DNA from: Prochlorococcus sp. AG-402-A04
GTDB lineage: Bacteria > Cyanobacteriota > Cyanobacteriia > PCC-6307 > Cyanobiaceae
Assembly: GCA_003278045.1 (NCBI GenBank)
Contig: QCHG01000006.1
Coordinates: forward strand, 1-64,000
Length of the DNA stretch: 64,000 nucleotides
Direction of reading: 5' to 3'
Shown: positions 28,908 to 39,172 of the stretch, in pieces
Numbering within the stretch: position 1 is the stretch's first letter
How the letters are laid out: each line of letters starts with the position of its first letter
Notes under the pieces: generated by a model
Told to the model about the DNA's origin: nothing
The model's input: the letters and a program-made list of their open reading frames with translations, nothing else
Database searches by the model: none
Position numbers and translations under genes: made by a program

Positions 28908-28974
28908 AATAATATAATTACTTAGTTTCTTTAGTATTAAAGAGTAGTTAGTATGAATTAAAATACCAAAAAGT

Positions 28975-30216
28975 TTGAGCCAGTTAGATTCCAATTGGTC
29001 GTTCGTTGATGACAGTAAGGTTACTACACCCGAGGGGTTTCATTTTGCTGGGATATCTGCTGGATTAAAAGCCTCTAATAAAAAAGATTTAGCACTAATA
29101 CTTGCTCCAGAAGGAAGTATTTTTAGTGGGATGTTTACCCAATCAATAGTTCGCGCTTCTTGTGTGGATATTTGTGAGGAAAGGATTAAAAAAACTTCAG
29201 GTTTTGTACGAGCAATACTAATTAATTCTGGACAAGCGAATGCATGTACAGGAATTCTTGGAATTCAACATTTTCAAATTGCTACAGGAAAGATTGCGGA
29301 ACTTTTAGGAATAAAAGAAGAAGAAGTTTTAATGTGTTCAACTGGTGTAATTGGTGTTCCAATTCAAATAAATGATTTAATAAAAAATTTACCGAATTTA
29401 GTTAGTGATTTAAAGAGTAATAATTTTCAAAATGCAGCAGAAGCAATTTTAACTACTGATTTGACTTTGAAAAAAGTTTTAATAGAGACGACTATTCAAG
29501 GTAGAAAAATAAAAATAGCAGGATTTGCAAAAGGTTCAGGAATGATTTACCCAAATATGGCTACAATGCTTGCTTTTCTAACATGTGATGCAGGTATTCA
29601 AAAAGAAGAATGGGACAAAATGATTGCTATTGCCGTTAAAAAATCTTTTAATGCAATATCAGTTGATGGAGAGACAAGCACAAATGATTCTTTTGTTGGA
29701 ATAAATGCAGGAGAAAAAATTGAAAAAAGGTTTTTTCCAATTATCCAAAAAGGGATTGATATTGTATGTCAAAACTTGGCAAAAAATATTGCAAGGGATG
29801 GAGAGGGAGCAAATTGTTTATTAGAAGTTATTGTTCAAGGAGCAAAAAATACTGATGATGCAATTATACTCGCGAAATCTATTTGTAATTCTGCCTTAGT
29901 AAAAACTGCTGTACATGGTTGTGATCCTAATTGGGGAAGAATCATTTCTGCTGCAGGTAATTCTGGAGTTAAATTTGACTTGAATGAAGTTGACTTATAT
30001 ATAGGAAACGCTCAGATTTTGGAAAACGGTAAGTTAAAAAAATATGATCCACAAGAAGTCACAGAATATATTAAGTCCAGAATGAAAGGTAAATATTTAG
30101 TAGATGATATTGTAAAAATTATGATTAATATAAATTCTGGCGAATCGAAAGGCACAGCTTGGGGGTGCGATCTTTCGAAAAAGTATGTTGAAATAAATAG
30201 CGAATATACTACTTGA
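28975..30216 (+). CDS. argJ: Bifunctional glutamate N-acetyltransferase/amino-acid acetyltransferase
   Basis: TTG start; GFAKGSGMIYPNMATMLAFLTCDA autoprocessing site, VDGETSTNDS, GCDPNWGRI. Confidence 0.97.
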   Translation: MSQLDSNWSFVDDSKVTTPEGFHFAGISAGLKASNKKDLALILAPEGSIFSGMFTQSIVRASCVDICEERIKKTSGFVRAILINSGQANACTGILGIQHFQIATGKIAELLGIKEEEVLMCSTGVIGVPIQINDLIKNLPNLVSDLKSNNFQNAAEAILTTDLTLKKVLIETTIQGRKIKIAGFAKGSGMIYPNMATMLAFLTCDAGIQKEEWDKMIAIAVKKSFNAISVDGETSTNDSFVGINAGEKIEKRFFPIIQKGIDIVCQNLAKNIARDGEGANCLLEVIVQGAKNTDDAIILAKSICNSALVKTAVHGCDPNWGRIISAAGNSGVKFDLNEVDLYIGNAQILENGKLKKYDPQEVTEYIKSRMKGKYLVDDIVKIMININSGESKGTAWGCDLSKKYVEINSEYTT

Positions 30217-30592: not shown

Positions 30593-31283
30593 TCAATTAC
30601 TCTACCCAACCACCAAATTTAGATTCTTTAGTAGGTACATTCGTGTGTCCGTGATTTTCTTTAAATTGTTTGAGAAGAGTTATATTCTCATTCCATAAGT
30701 AGGATTTTAAATCTTTAATAAAACCGATTTCATCTAATTCTTGAATTTGTTCTGGTGTAAGTTTTTTTTGATCATTTCTGATTTTACTTATCCATTTGCC
30801 AATAATTTTTTCACCATAGGGAACATTTGTATGTCCATTTTTAATTTTAAATTTTTTTAAAAGATCGATATTTCTTTTCCATAAGTATGATGTAGGGTCC
30901 CAAATAAAACCGATTTCATCTAATTTTTGAATTTGTTCTGGTGTAAGTCTATCTTTTCTAAATCTTTGACTATCTACCCATGAACCAAGTTTGCCAGAAC
31001 CATGAGGAACATTCGTGTGTCCGTGATTTTCTTTAAATTGTTTAAGAAGTGTTATTTGTTCGTTCCAGAAGTAGGACGCGGGATCCCATATAAAACCGAT
31101 ATTATCTAATAATTTTATTTTTTCTGGACTTATTGTATCTTTTCTTCTTCTAATATTTGCTACCCATGTGCCAAGTTTTCCAAAATCCTGAGGTACTTTC
31201 GTATCACCATGTTTTTCTTTGTAGTTTAATAATTCTCCATAATTTTCCATCCACAGTTCTGAAGTATTTTCTACTAATAAAGT
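30341..31283 (-). repeat. Tandem 186-bp (62-aa) helicase-associated repeats, about 5 units
   Basis: Equivalent 'accga/accaa' positions at 30355, 30541, 30725, 30911, 31097: spacings 186, 184, 186, 186. Confidence 0.9.
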
Positions 31284-33224
31284 TGATATTGAATCTATAA
31301 AATTTTTATTAATTCTCTCGGTTGGTAAATCAAAATGAACTTTCTCAAGTCCTTTATATCCTATTCTTTTAGATCTTCTTTTCCCTAAGGAAATTCTTAA
31401 ATTATCTATATTTTCTTTGAGAACATCATCGTGAAATTTTAATGCGTGAATAATTCTCCATACATCACTGAATCTACTTTCTAAAACTTGGTCTTCTACA
31501 TTGGTCAAGTCTTGAAGATAAATTGGTATTAATATCGTTCCCTTTTGTTTTTCTCCTTTGCGTATAACTCTTCCAACTGCTTGAACTATATCTACTTCGC
31601 TGCTTTTAGGATCTACAAAAGTAACACCATCCAACGATGGGACATCAACTCCTTCAGATAAGCATTTGGCATTACCAAGAATTTTCCTTTCATTTTCCCT
31701 TATATTTTCAAGATCTCTAATTTTTTCAAGTCTTTCTTCAGTTCGCATTTTTCCTTCTACATAATCACAAATAATTTCACCATCAGGTCTATCATTTATT
31801 GGCATTTCATTTAAGGTCTTTTGAAAAGTGTCTTTAAATAATTTTGCTCCCTCAATTCTTGAATGGAAATTTATAATTCTTTTTAAATTATGTTGTTTTA
31901 TTCCTTTAGCAAGTGCTATTTGTAATGCAAGGGTTTCTGAATCGATTAAATCCCCATCTTTTGTTTTAAGAAAATCACGTTTAGAAATTGTTTCATTAAT
32001 ACTTTGATCGTCAACCCCAATTACTATGACTTGATAGTCAGTAAGTATTTCCGCTTTAATAGCATCAGAAAATTTTAGAGAATGCAATACACCTCCAAAT
32101 AATGCTTTATTATCCATAGATGCAATTTCAGTTTCAGTTTTTATTGCTTGTTGTTTAATCTTTTTAGATAAAACTCTTGGAGTTGCGGTAAAAAATAATC
32201 TTTTATTTGCTCTAATTTTTTCTTGATCTAATACAAAACTGTAGTCTTCAGAAATTTTTCCAGCGCATTTGTGTGCTTCATCAGCAAAGACAATATCAAA
32301 GGGAGGAATTAATTCATCTTTCTGTGCTTCTACAATTAACTCTGAGGATTGGTAAGTTGAAAATAAAACTTTAGATTTACTTTTTAGAAGAAATTTTTTT
32401 ATTTCGCTTTTATCACTTGTAACTGGGATTCCTAATTCAGAAGGATCATTTATCCAATTCTCATCTAAATCATTGTTTTTCTTTTTATGGACTGTTTTAT
32501 CAGAGCATACACATTGCCATATAAATGGATCAGAGAGATTATTTCGCCATACGCTCAATGTCTGACCCAGTAAATTTAAAGATGGAACCAGGACTAATAC
32601 TTGCTTTGCTTTTACATCTTCTTTAATCCATAAAGATGTCAATGTCTTGCCTGTTCCACATGCCATCAAGACTTGACCCCTTTCAATGCTTTCAATTTTT
32701 TGTAAGACTTCATTTATTGCTTTTTTTTGATGCTCTTTTCTTGGAAAAGGTTTTATTTTTTTTACTTTTGATAGTTCTTTTATGCTTGGAGGAAAATCTA
32801 TTTTTGAATTACGAAAATCTTTTAATATAAATCTGACAACTTTATTTTCTTTAAGAGTAATATCTGCATTTGCGCCTATTCGATCAGTACTAGCAATTAA
32901 AAGTCTTTTATAAAATTTCGATGTAGGTGATGCTGATATGAAACTATCAATTGATTCTTTAGTTATGTAAGTTTTTGGTGAGTAACCTTTTGACTGGACT
33001 GCCCATTTATTTCCATCTTTATCTTTAAAAATTAAATCTATACCTAAATCTTTCTTATTCGTTTCAAGAAATTGATCAACTATAGAACTCCAAATAGGAT
33101 CATTTTTTAAAAACCATTTGACGAATATTTGTTCAAAAGGCAGACCTTTTTCTGTTTTATCTTTTTTAACGTTTCCTTCTTCATCTAAATCTAAAGAAGA
33201 AAAGAATTCATCAAAGGTTGCCAT
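30597..33224 (-). CDS. SF2 DEAD/DEAH helicase with N-terminal nuclease-like domain and C-terminal helicase-associated (HA) repeats; possibly 3'-truncated by frameshift
   Basis: N-term GIDLIFKDKDGNKWAVQSKGY (PD-(D/E)XK-like); Walker A MACGTGKT; DEAH; TATPR; QAVGRVIRKG; C-terminal repeats W..NI.LLKQFKENHGHTNVP...G.WV...R..K..LTPEQIQ.LDEIGFI. Confidence 0.88.
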   Translation of the reverse strand: MATFDEFFSSLDLDEEGNVKKDKTEKGLPFEQIFVKWFLKNDPIWSSIVDQFLETNKKDLGIDLIFKDKDGNKWAVQSKGYSPKTYITKESIDSFISASPTSKFYKRLLIASTDRIGANADITLKENKVVRFILKDFRNSKIDFPPSIKELSKVKKIKPFPRKEHQKKAINEVLQKIESIERGQVLMACGTGKTLTSLWIKEDVKAKQVLVLVPSLNLLGQTLSVWRNNLSDPFIWQCVCSDKTVHKKKNNDLDENWINDPSELGIPVTSDKSEIKKFLLKSKSKVLFSTYQSSELIVEAQKDELIPPFDIVFADEAHKCAGKISEDYSFVLDQEKIRANKRLFFTATPRVLSKKIKQQAIKTETEIASMDNKALFGGVLHSLKFSDAIKAEILTDYQVIVIGVDDQSINETISKRDFLKTKDGDLIDSETLALQIALAKGIKQHNLKRIINFHSRIEGAKLFKDTFQKTLNEMPINDRPDGEIICDYVEGKMRTEERLEKIRDLENIRENERKILGNAKCLSEGVDVPSLDGVTFVDPKSSEVDIVQAVGRVIRKGEKQKGTILIPIYLQDLTNVEDQVLESRFSDVWRIIHALKFHDDVLKENIDNLRISLGKRRSKRIGYKGLEKVHFDLPTERINKNFIDSISTLLVENTSELWMENYGELLNYKEKHGDTKVPQDFGKLGTWVANIRRRKDTISPEKIKLLDNIGFIWDPASYFWNEQITLLKQFKENHGHTNVPHGSGKLGSWVDSQRFRKDRLTPEQIQKLDEIGFIWDPTSYLWKRNIDLLKKFKIKNGHTNVPYGEKIIGKWISKIRNDQKKLTPEQIQELDEIGFIKDLKSYLWNENITLLKQFKENHGHTNVPTKESKFGGWVE

Positions 33225-34894: not shown

Positions 34895-35140
34895 TGTAGC
34901 ACCTTTATAACACTAGTTCAGTGATACCAAATGGTTTGACCCTGTGAAAAAAGGTTTGTAACACCTATATAACACTAATTTTAGAAGTAAGAACCCAGTG
35001 ATGCCAATGGATTTGGGGTTATATATGTATCAATAGCGAGTACACAACCTAACACTAAATCTATTCCAACACAGTGGTTTTCAGGTATACGAAATTTTTG
35101 GTACCACTAAAGTACCAGTAAATTTCTACGTAAAAATTTT
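34895..35140. repeat. Intergenic repeat block, copy 1 (paralogous to 36607..36852)
   Basis: From aatagcgagtacacaacctaacactaaatc (35032) through the gene 3' end, near-identical to the sequence 1712 bp downstream; upstream part alignable but diverged. Confidence 0.85.
35099..35117. repeat. Short inverted/direct repeat TGGTAC-CACTAAA-GTACCA
   Basis: Perfect 6-bp arms with 7-nt spacer; recurs at 36811..36829 and, with variant spacer, at 36607..36625. Confidence 0.8.
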
Positions 35141-36486
35141 TATTTGAGTTGATAAACTGCTAAATCTAGTGATTTGCTTTCACCTAGTGCAATTTTTTCA
35201 AGTCGCTCTAATCTTGCTAAAAGTTGTTTATTTTTTTCTTCAAGAGTTTCAATTTTTGTCTCCATTACTTTTTTATCTTTTATGCTGATTTGAGTTGGTT
35301 TTTTTAATTCACCTAATTTAAAAACAAATCCTGCTTTTACTACTCCACTATCTAACGTTCCTTCACCATAAGACTTAGAACCTCCAAAAACATAAGATCC
35401 ACCAGCATTGATATCAACTCTCTCATTGACTTTAGAAGCACAACCAAAACCAATTGCATATCTGCTACTATAAGCACCACTACCAACACCACAACTTAAT
35501 TTAGATTCTTTAGATGTCTGAGGTAACGCAGTAAGTGCTGCTGTTAAAGCAGTTGATCCAGCCACTCCTGAACCCAGATTTTTAATATTAGAGGTATTAG
35601 TTGAGATATTAGAGGTATTAGTTGAGATATTAGAGGTATTAGTTGAGATATTAGAAGTATTAGTTGAGATATTATTTTTGTTGGTTGTAACTTGAGTGCT
35701 ATTTCCTGTCTGTACTTCTACTCCATCAATTAATAATTTAGTCCCCTCTGTCACATTGATATTTATTGCATCACCATTTTCATCTTTAGCATAGAGTTTT
35801 TGTACTCCATCTTCTTCTATAGTGATTAGCGAATTTTTACCAATATGAATTTCACCAGAATTTTTTTTTGTTATGAGTGATATACCATCAACAGTTAGAC
35901 CTTCTGAGGTTAAGTCAATATCATTTCCATCAGCACCAATTTGAATAGACCCATCAGCATTTTTAGTTATAACAGCAGCACCATCAATATTCAAACCATC
36001 TGTAACTATGTCAATGTCGTCAGTATCTCTACCAATTTGTACTTCTCCAGATGTCTTTTTTTTAATTAAATCATCTCCAATAGATATATTACCTGTATCA
36101 TCTTTTGATAATATCGGTTTTTCGAGAAGATCACTATAGTTATTTCGCCATTTAGATTCACCATCTGAGAAAGTATTATTATCAGGATCATATTTAATAT
36201 ATTTTGAGTATCCACCTAGACTAATGTTTAAAGTTCCCGAATCATCTATAAAACTTTTATCAGAGGAATCTAAAAAATAACACGCATCAAAGTACTGCAT
36301 TTTACAAAATTCACCTTTTAATGTTGAAACTCCTGTGGTGGAATTAATAGTATAAATTTCAATTTTGTCTAATTTATTACCTCCTCTTTTAAGTCCCCAA
36401 TAGTCAAAAGTCGAATCTGCTTTTAGAGGACTAGATCCAATAAATAATGATGTTCCTATCAATGATAATGCTAAAAATTTTTTCAT
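35140..36486 (-). CDS. Putative secreted coiled-coil surface protein with YadA-like anchor-type domain (paralog A)
   Basis: Signal peptide MKKFLALSLIGTSLFIGSSPLKA; heptad array NTSNIST x4; AGSTALTAALTALPQ...SKLSCGVGSGAYSSRYAIGFGCASKVNERVDINAGGSYVFGG...SGVVKAGFVFKLG; C-terminal coiled coil. Confidence 0.75.
   Translation of the reverse strand: MKKFLALSLIGTSLFIGSSPLKADSTFDYWGLKRGGNKLDKIEIYTINSTTGVSTLKGEFCKMQYFDACYFLDSSDKSFIDDSGTLNISLGGYSKYIKYDPDNNTFSDGESKWRNNYSDLLEKPILSKDDTGNISIGDDLIKKKTSGEVQIGRDTDDIDIVTDGLNIDGAAVITKNADGSIQIGADGNDIDLTSEGLTVDGISLITKKNSGEIHIGKNSLITIEEDGVQKLYAKDENGDAININVTEGTKLLIDGVEVQTGNSTQVTTNKNNISTNTSNISTNTSNISTNTSNISTNTSNIKNLGSGVAGSTALTAALTALPQTSKESKLSCGVGSGAYSSRYAIGFGCASKVNERVDINAGGSYVFGGSKSYGEGTLDSGVVKAGFVFKLGELKKPTQISIKDKKVMETKIETLEEKNKQLLARLERLEKIALGESKSLDLAVYQLK
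35587..35670 (-). repeat. 21-bp tandem repeat x4 encoding heptad NISTNTS
   Basis: attagaggtattagttgagat repeated four times (last copy one substitution). Confidence 0.95.
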
Positions 36487-36606
36487 AAATCAAAATAGAT
36501 TAAACATATTTTGATTCAAAAGAAAATATTTGCTAGACACAAATCAATTTTTTAAATTTTTAGAATAAATACATAGAAGAATTTATAATACTAACCTTTA
36601 CTTGCC

Positions 36607-36852
36607 TGGTACCGGTAAAGTACCACTAGTTTCTATTATGACTAATTCTCGAATGGTTAAAAATAGTTAGGTACCACCTAAGTACCACTATTTTCAGAAG
36701 TAAAACATAGTGATAGCAAAGGTTTATGGATTATATAGATATTAATAGCGAGTACACAACCTAACACTAAATCTATTCCAACACAGTGGTTTTCAGGTAT
36801 ACGAAATTTTTGGTACCACTAAAGTACCAGTAAATTTCTACGTAAAAATTTT
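36607..36852. repeat. Intergenic repeat block, copy 2
   Basis: 36744..36873 matches 35032..35161 at constant offset 1712; contains TGGTACCGGTAAAGTACCA, GGTACCACCTAAGTACC and TGGTACCACTAAAGTACCA. Confidence 0.85.
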
Positions 36853-38150
36853 TATTTGAGTTGATAAACTGCTAAATCTTTTGATTTACTTTCACCTAGT
36901 GCAATTTTTTCAATTTTTTCTAATCTTGCCATCAAGATAGACAGTTTATTCTCTAATTTTTGATTTTTGGAAAGTATTGTTTTGTTTTTCTTTTCAAGTG
37001 ATTCAATTTTTGTCTCCATTACTTTTTTATCTTTCATGCTGATTTGAGTAGATTTATTTAACTCGCCTAATTTAAAAACAAATCCTGCTTTAACAACTCC
37101 ACTATCTAAAGTTCCTCCACCATAAGATTTAGATCCACCAAAAACATATGAACCACCAGCATTAACATCAACTCTTTCATTAACTTTAGAAGCACAACCA
37201 AAACCAACTGCATACCTACTGCTATATGCACCAGTTCCAACACCGCAACTTAATTTAGATTCTTTTGATGTCTGAGGTAATGCAGATAATGCTGCTGTAA
37301 GTGCAGTTGACCCTGCAACTCCTTCTCCAAGGTTTTTGATATTTGCTTTATTAGTAGAAATATTATTTTTATTTGTTGTAACTTGAGGAATTGTTCCAGA
37401 TGGTGTAACTTCAACTCCATCAATTAGTAATTTACTGCCGTTAGTTACATCGATATTGATAGCATTTCCATTTTCATCTTGAGCATAAAGTTTCTGTACT
37501 CCATCTTCTTCTTTGGTAATTAATGAATTTTTACCAATGTGAATTTCACCAGATTCTTTTTTGGTTATAAGTGAAACTCCATCTACAGTTAAACCCTCTG
37601 CTGTAATGTCAATATCATTTCCATCAGCACCAATTTGAATAGACCCATCTGTATTTTTAGTAATAACAGCAGCCCCATCAATATTTAAACCATCAGAGAC
37701 TATATCTATATCATCAGTATCCCCACCAATTTGAACAGAACCATCTACTTTTTTTTCAATTAATTTATTTCCAGTTAGTTCAATTGAGACATCACCATTT
37801 TCTTTTTTTGTGATATTTTTTTTCTCAAAAGTACCTCCAAAAGTACTTTGCCAATTTGAAGTGATTGTCCATGAATTTTCACTCAAGTCATAAACTTCAT
37901 AACCTGCATCTGTGGATATATAAATTTTGTCATCATCTGAATAGGTGTATTTTGAATCCCATCCTGGGCCGACAAAATCTCTTGTGGATCTTAGTGTGCA
38001 ATTACCTGTGCTAGAGATGCATGTATAAACTTCATTAAGCTCTGTGGAAATATTATAATCAATTGCCCAATAATCCCAATCTGCTTTTGCGGGATAACTT
38101 CCCAATAAAAAAGTTGATGCAAGAAATGAATAAGTTAATAATTTTTTCAT
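36852..38150 (-). CDS. Putative secreted coiled-coil surface protein with YadA-like anchor-type domain (paralog B)
   Basis: Signal peptide MKKLLTYSFLASTFLLGSYPAKA (internal ATG at 38150); same middle repeats and anchor-like domain as paralog A, but only a single NISTN heptad. Confidence 0.75.
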   Translation of the reverse strand: MKKLLTYSFLASTFLLGSYPAKADWDYWAIDYNISTELNEVYTCISSTGNCTLRSTRDFVGPGWDSKYTYSDDDKIYISTDAGYEVYDLSENSWTITSNWQSTFGGTFEKKNITKKENGDVSIELTGNKLIEKKVDGSVQIGGDTDDIDIVSDGLNIDGAAVITKNTDGSIQIGADGNDIDITAEGLTVDGVSLITKKESGEIHIGKNSLITKEEDGVQKLYAQDENGNAINIDVTNGSKLLIDGVEVTPSGTIPQVTTNKNNISTNKANIKNLGEGVAGSTALTAALSALPQTSKESKLSCGVGTGAYSSRYAVGFGCASKVNERVDVNAGGSYVFGGSKSYGGGTLDSGVVKAGFVFKLGELNKSTQISMKDKKVMETKIESLEKKNKTILSKNQKLENKLSILMARLEKIEKIALGESKSKDLAVYQLK

Positions 38151-38324
38151 AATAATAAATAATTTATTATTATTATGTTTCTGCAAAATATATCGACAAC
38201 TATTTCTTTTTCAAAAATATAAAATTGTGATTATTTTCTAGAAGCTGCTTATTGTCAAAGAGACGCATTACAGCAAGGTGTATATACTATTATTTGCCTA
38301 AGGTTGAAATTAGAAGTAATTATA

Positions 38325-38567
38325 CTACTTAAGTTTTAATAAATCTAATGGTAGATATTCATTTGTATAAAGAAACAGTATTGTTAAAGTTCCAATTACA
38401 GAGCCAACAAAACCTCCAAAAAAATTAACTAATAATCCAGATTGTCTAATTGTTGTTTCTTTGTCTTTTTCTTCTTCAAAATTATGAGAATCAACTACTT
38501 TTAAGCGCTGATTGGTTGTTGGTTGTTTAAGTTGTTGGTGTCGGATAAGGGCTTCGAAATCAGGCAT
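38325..38567 (-). CDS. Small membrane protein downstream of parA
   Basis: MPDFEALIRHQQLKQPTTNQR...; TM GLLVNFFGGFVGSVIGTLTILFLY; overlaps parA 3' end by 67 nt in another frame. Confidence 0.6.
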   Translation of the reverse strand: MPDFEALIRHQQLKQPTTNQRLKVVDSHNFEEEKDKETTIRQSGLLVNFFGGFVGSVIGTLTILFLYTNEYLPLDLLKLK

Positions 38568-39172
38568 GGAATTTGTGATGCAATTGAACAATAAGCAGAC
38601 CAGCCCGTCATTCGACGAGGATCTGATCTACCTAAATCGTCTACAGCTTCAAATACAGCATTCCCCGAGGCTTCTGCTTTATCAAATGCTGAAAGTAAGG
38701 GTATAAATGTATCAAAAACATACAAACCAAAATTTTCTAGAGCTGCTTTGGCTTGTTGCGCTGCTTTTTGCTGTCTAAAATCAACTTTTACTATTACTAC
38801 TGCATGGTTAACTTTTAAGTTGCTTAATAAATTAGCTAGTTCAACAGTTAATTCTACTGATCTTGCTTTTGCAGTTGTAGGTAAGATAACTAAATCTGAA
38901 CCATAAGCTAAGTGTTTAAGTTCTTCTTGATCACTGCTAGCCTGGCCATCAGTTATTACAATTTCTGATGATCTTGATGCTTTAGCAGCTGAACTGACGG
39001 GGAAAACTGGAAACGGAAGATTGCCTCTTGATGCGTACGCTAAAGCAGATCTATTCTTGTCGGCATCGACTATGCAAACTTTTTTACCTTCAGAATGCCA
39101 AACACTAGCAAGGTGAATACTTGTGCAGGTCTTGGCCACACCCCCTTTTTGTCCGCAAACGGTAATGAACAA
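38501..39172 (-). CDS. ParA/MinD-family ATPase
   Basis: Deviant Walker A CGQKGGVAKTCTSIHLA with signature lysine; VCIVDADKN; EIVITDGQASS. Confidence 0.9.
   Translation of the reverse strand: MFITVCGQKGGVAKTCTSIHLASVWHSEGKKVCIVDADKNRSALAYASRGNLPFPVFPVSSAAKASRSSEIVITDGQASSDQEELKHLAYGSDLVILPTTAKARSVELTVELANLLSNLKVNHAVVIVKVDFRQQKAAQQAKAALENFGLYVFDTFIPLLSAFDKAEASGNAVFEAVDDLGRSDPRRMTGWSAYCSIASQIPCLISKPLSDTNNLNNQQPISA

Follow-up and report, generated by a model that had tools for sequence, protein, structure and literature searches.

Genes A and B, which lie in tandem in a 64,000-nucleotide stretch of Prochlorococcus sp. AG-402-A04 DNA (the window), encode proteins that are by sequence type Vc trimeric autotransporter adhesins (TAAs), and the anatomy of a predicted monomer of A fits this assignment. 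We consider it probable that they form surface spikes in which exchangeable heads are mounted on a base whose periplasmic trimer clamp is built in cis into the adhesin chain. The kind of protein is known; the tail that follows the barrel is unusual, although a post-anchor domain as such has precedent (PMC5491611). The two genes and their parts are as follows.

35140..36486 (-): gene A, TAA homologue of 448 aa (open reading frame, PF03895 match and AlphaFold2 monomer)
36418..36486 (-): A, Sec signal peptide, residues 1-23 (by inspection: KK and a hydrophobic core, cleavage near KA/D)
36151..36417 (-): A, variable head, residues 24-112 (predicted strands 29-108)
35758..36111 (-): A, beta-repeat region of ITK..G.I.IG units, residues 126-243 (AlphaFold2 monomer)
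35581..35697 (-): A, heptad stalk coiled coil of ISTNTSN repeats, residues 264-302 (repeat, PDB sequence match and model)
35314..35574 (-): A, membrane anchor, with helix 305-319 and strands 330-339, 342-354, 357-367 and 382-391 (PF03895, model and Foldseek)
35440..35493 (-): A, C332 to C349, the conserved C-x16-C across hairpin b1-b2 (homologue reads and model)
35143..35310 (-): A, post-anchor coiled-coil extension, residues 393-448, 56 aa (helix 402-433 in the model; homologues)
35197..35214 (-): A, putative trimerisation motif RLERLE, residues 425-430 (motif scan)
36852..38150 (-): gene B, TAA homologue and upstream tandem paralogue of A, 432 aa from its ATG
38082..38150 (-): B, Sec signal peptide, residues 1-23 (by inspection of the translation)
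37815..38081 (-): B, head of two predicted propeller-like blades, residues 24-112 (separate model)
37113..37277 (-): B, YadA_anchor match, residues 292-346 (Pfam profile)
36855..37064 (-): B, post-anchor coiled-coil extension, residues 363-432, 70 aa, two heptads longer than that of A (homologues)
36909..36926 (-): B, putative trimerisation motif RLEKIE (motif scan)

Translation of B is likelier to start at the ATG at 38150 than at an alternative TTG, which would give a frame of 36852-38186, because the signal peptide begins at this ATG. At the DNA level, A and B share long blocks of 85-92% identity, 1.69-1.75 kb apart and including some 150 nt of 3' flank, and we therefore regard the pair as a tandem duplication; a third copy of the PF03895 anchor is encoded elsewhere in the draft genome (1.3 Mb, 44 contigs). 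The identity between the two proteins is 27% in the head, 94% in the anchor and 82% in the tail. The stalk of A is encoded by a 21-nt (7-codon, ISTNTSN) tandem repeat present in 4.3 copies with 98% match. This repeat, the open reading frames and their translations agree with a preliminary description of the pair as secreted proteins with a signal peptide, repeats and an Asn/Thr/Ser heptad stalk.

Both proteins match the YadA_anchor profile PF03895 above its curated cut-off of 22.7 (A, 33.3 bits, E 5e-8; B, 36.1 bits, E 7e-9), and among PDB sequences A matches both a TAA stalk (2wpq, E 1e-4) and the anchor of YadA (2lme, E 0.004). An AlphaFold2 monomer of A, built from 36 sequences with a mean pLDDT of 67.5 and a pTM of 0.33, places in order the head strands (29-108), the beta-repeat (126-243), helices 264-302 and 305-319, four strands and helix 402-433. 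In a Foldseek search, this model retrieved the anchors of Hia (2gr7, 2gr8, 3emo), AtaA (9vnj) and YadA (2lme) with a probability of 1.00 and E values of 0.009-0.07. The YadA-like anchor proposed at the outset is thus borne out by homology. The order signal peptide, passenger (head and stalk), anchor that is expected of a TAA is present in A and B, the signal peptides being assigned by inspection, and the anchor fold of one helix and four strands per chain is present in the predicted A monomer, where the pLDDT of the anchor is only about 55. The departure lies at the C-terminus, where 56 aa (A) or 70 aa (B) follow strand 4, which in TAAs is otherwise the extreme end of the chain. Such an ending is usual rather than defining, since it is broken by the TAAs of Veillonella that carry an SLH domain, so that the segment, described earlier as unusual among TAAs, is indeed present and conserved but has a published precedent (PMC5491611).

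The generality of this tail was assessed by reading 71 cyanobacterial anchors in frame from anchor to stop, an anchor being counted as extended where at least 30 residues follow the matched stretch. Extensions are present in 56 of the 71, all 56 of them within the picocyanobacterial family of the host, and the anchors from other families (L061-L069) end at the barrel in nine cases out of nine. The remaining 15 comprise ten that lack the Cys pair and end at or near the matched stretch (L059, with a short frame, is doubtful), two-Cys anchors ending at the barrel (L050, L058 and L067), one short frame (L051) and one anchor truncated at the end of its contig (L056). The C-x16-C pair is present in all 56 extended anchors, in register across the predicted hairpin b1-b2; in A, C332 comes to lie opposite C349 because the predicted turn between strands 1 and 2 falls at 340-341. 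The two conserved Cys noted in each anchor at the beginning are therefore present in A and recur in its homologues. Across the family, the extensions span 35 to 169 aa, and in the genus they accompany each of the two anchor subtypes: SKESKLSCGVG, which generally comes with an STNTSNI stalk, and PTDTTLACGLGTG, which mostly lacks that stalk. The post-anchor coiled coil is accordingly real and conserved across genus and family, although the single figure of about 60 aa first given for it conceals the two-heptad difference between A and B.

The sequence of the extension offers clues to its state of assembly. The motif R-h-x-x-h-E, which according to work by Kammerer and colleagues reportedly specifies trimers in short coiled coils, is carried by 47 of the 56 extensions, where composition shuffles would lead one to expect 1.1. 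In the GTDB-scan set, which is larger than the 71-anchor set and partly shares its genomes, the spacing from barrel end to motif is 33, 40, 47, 54 or 61 aa in most sequences, and 75 of 89 distinct linkers have lengths of 5 mod 7, a count whose effective number is lowered by relatedness. When similar linkers of equal length were thinned, 19 of 26 remained in this class (p 2e-11); a stricter thinning that ignored length left 7 of 13 (p 9e-4). The occurrence of several distinct lengths in one register requires repeated changes by whole heptads and, because such changes are combined with retention of the motif across diverged sequences, we conclude that the coiled-coil register is under selection. 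With R placed at position g, position d is Leu, Ile, Val or Met in 85% of cases and position a is Asn in 50%. Two-stranded zippers often combine Asn at a with Leu at d, and the heptads of the tail would by themselves fit two strands as well as three; it is the R-h-x-x-h-E motif and the attachment to a trimeric anchor that argue for three strands. In known TAA anchors, the end of strand 4 faces the periplasm, and the tail should therefore be periplasmic. Pfam matches of the extension to bZIP_2 and spectrin fell below cut-off and were set aside as reflecting the heptads.

We propose that the A and B chains are exported by Sec and that three chains, with the help of BamA, would form a 12-strand barrel in the outer membrane; an Omp85/BamA protein is encoded in the AG-402-A04 genome. 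A short spike, made up of the propeller-like head, the beta-repeat shaft and the heptad stalk, would be pushed outwards, and the segment after strand 4 would remain periplasmic, forming a parallel coiled coil of three strands. Acting as a clamp, this coil would keep all three C-termini in register, ensuring that a trimeric barrel is formed, and it may also resist pull-out of the spike, a role played for AtaA by TpgA, a separate protein. Were the conserved Cys to form a disulfide, the bond would staple hairpin b1-b2 close to the periplasmic end of the hairpin; the genome also encodes a disulfide enzyme of the VKOR type. Anchor and clamp would then constitute a constant base on which variable heads are swapped, mostly at one chromosomal site.

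With YadA, Hia and AtaA (type Vc, PF03895), A and B share the signal peptide, head, heptad stalk and helix plus four-strand anchor, to which they add the conserved coiled coil after the barrel and C-x16-C in hairpin b1-b2; the heads in the window, moreover, are predicted to be propeller-like blades in place of YadA head repeats. A periplasmic element beneath a trimeric anchor is likewise found in the AtaA system, where simulation shows TpgA acting at the anchor base as a nut on a bolt (PMC13082670; PDB 9VNJ). TpgA, however, is a protein in its own right and has a peptidoglycan-binding domain, whereas A and B would carry the element within their own chains. The closest precedent is provided by the Veillonella TAAs Vpar_0041, Vpar_0100 and Vpar_1664, in which the anchor is followed by an SLH domain that has been proposed as a peptidoglycan binder and is said to occur in Negativicutes alone (PMC5491611). 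There too a domain expected to be periplasmic stands after a YadA anchor, but A and B carry a heptad coiled coil with a trimerisation motif instead, and the Pfam scan gave no SLH match in either protein.

This precedent for a wall-binding domain after the anchor (PMC5491611) lends some weight to the main rival explanation, in which the extension of a TAA is a peptidoglycan strut, a trimeric coil reaching from outer membrane to wall that tethers the membrane instead of clamping the trimer, in the manner of Braun's lipoprotein or of the Veillonella SLH domain. The dimensions are suitable, as about 30-60 helical residues would measure roughly 5-9 nm, within the range of a strut, and vary mostly by whole heptads; 32 of 94 complete extensions, furthermore, end in Lys. 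We nevertheless think a strut unlikely, given that the Pfam scan of A and B found no peptidoglycan-binding domain and that the best-conserved part of the extension is the trimerisation motif and not the tip. Since the last residue varies (K, P, Q, D, R, N, E, F), we rejected a covalent bond to peptidoglycan via a C-terminal Lys of the kind known from Braun's lipoprotein. Less likely again is that a real TAA anchor is followed by a passive leftover or a generic assembly tail: the sequence of the extension drifts, its length is far from constant and two-Cys anchors exist that do without it (L050, L058, L067), but whole-heptad changes in length and retention of the motif in diverged sequences point to selection on the register.

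On the reading that we prefer, with a clamped and constant base, the heads are the exchangeable part. Among type-1 proteins, the median identity over 171 pairs is 22% for heads and 93% for anchors. The head of B, modelled separately (pLDDT 87.4, pTM 0.77), contains seven strands, suggesting two blades per chain, and its top matches in the PDB are mostly beta-propellers (kelch, WD40, TolB), albeit weak ones (E from 0.024). We hypothesise from this model that three B-type heads could close into a six-blade ring. In L143, L146, L150 and L152, classical YadA head repeats (PF05658) replace the propeller-like head on the same anchor and extension. Variable heads on a constant base fit a part in recognition or evasion at the cell surface, a role suggested by their variability and location.

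The site at which these heads vary is bounded in the window by two genes.

28957..30213 (+): one border of the variable site, argJ homologue (neighbour comparison)
38504..39169 (-): other border of the variable site, a ParA/MinD-like ATPase and core gene of the genus (Pfam and neighbour comparison)

Of 61 genomes, 57 have the ParA-like gene. The neighbourhood of argJ or the ParA-like gene accounts for 51 of the 79 homologous loci, and that of apt for 10. In many adhesin-free genomes (for example, G003, G014, G021, G023, G038, G059, G091 and G098), argJ and ParA adjoin at a distance of about 175-180 bp; in carriers, the site holds one to four adhesin genes and sometimes other inserts. One such insert lies beside A and B at 30597-33224 (-), encoding an 875-aa restriction-endonuclease/helicase protein with Mrr-like nuclease, ResIII/DEAD helicase and helicase-associated domains, a homologue of which adjoins the adhesin gene in L205. 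In L024 (genome G136) and L025 (G118), the anchor matches are broken by stop codons, which suggests that some loci hold decayed copies. About a quarter of the Prochlorococcus genomes, 39 of 151, contain PF03895 (14 of 51 at 90% completeness or above), as do 29 of 251 genomes of the family, spread over 16 of 59 genera, and 19 of 388 genomes across the phylum, so that the distribution is patchy but widespread. Named relatives in the GTDB scan include single-cell genomes and isolates of Prochlorococcus, as well as Synechococcus and Cyanobium. Carriers available in culture are Prochlorococcus MIT 9107 (contigs L099 and L133) and MIT 9401 (L114) and Synechococcus RCC307 (L123). The pair had been singled out as notable in a minimal cyanobacterium; a search for homologues does recover them, but their number in the genus means that the class is not a one-off.

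It is very improbable that the genes are cyanophage relics or cargo encoding virion fibres with YadA-like ends: although cyanophage structural proteins have been called YadA-domain proteins (PMC9146016, PMC6224464), PHROGs gives weak matches to adhesin and tail families and YadA-anchor phage proteins are among the best viral fold matches, both A and B have signal peptides (by inspection), tblastn with full-length A or its anchor found no match in 50,697 phage records, the immediate neighbours of A and B include no phage genes, and the fixed chromosomal site is common across the genus. The cyanophage proteins in question, S-SZBM1_54 and S-TIM4 ORF108, resemble A in their YadA-domain annotation and come from phages of the same marine hosts, but they are virion proteins.

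The literature searched contained no description of host-encoded TAAs in Prochlorococcus, which is not proof of absence. To our knowledge, work on TAAs has been confined almost entirely to animal pathogens and commensals. Those described here would make up a widespread, hypervariable surface system in a highly abundant photosynthetic organism, from a genus known for its minimal genome. How three chains meet at the outer membrane is a question of long standing in type Vc secretion, for which the conserved tail provides a natural example; the tail also suggests that an adhesin can carry its own periplasmic reinforcement. The variable heads at a fixed site are concrete candidates for structures that cyanophages or grazers recognise. 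Going further, one might envisage a distinct picocyanobacterial class of TAAs with a disulfide-stapled anchor, a built-in periplasmic trimeric clamp and exchangeable six-blade heads at a fixed locus, serving surface variation when Prochlorococcus meets phages, grazers or other cells; this fuller picture is speculative and, taken as a whole, rather doubtful.

The sequence TGGTACNNNNNNGGTACC is present at 35100-35117, 36608-36625, 36670-36687 and 36812-36829 (-), its fuller form being an 11-bp direct repeat of GTGGTAC. These are its four occurrences in the whole draft genome, all flanking A and B, and a reversed control pattern gave none. Copies are also located near homologues, often paired 62 bp apart, with the diverged forms GTGTTATATAGGTGTTAC downstream. 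They could be sites for a regulator of the OmpR/PhoB type or a scar of the duplication. Shuffled sequences contained promoter-like sites at least as often.

Open frames of 1,335 to 3,602 aa in Synechococcus-like genomes (L033, L036, L037, L039, L040, L041, L053 and L054) end in a two-Cys anchor and a tail of 135-169 aa, and are possibly giant surface proteins of the same class.
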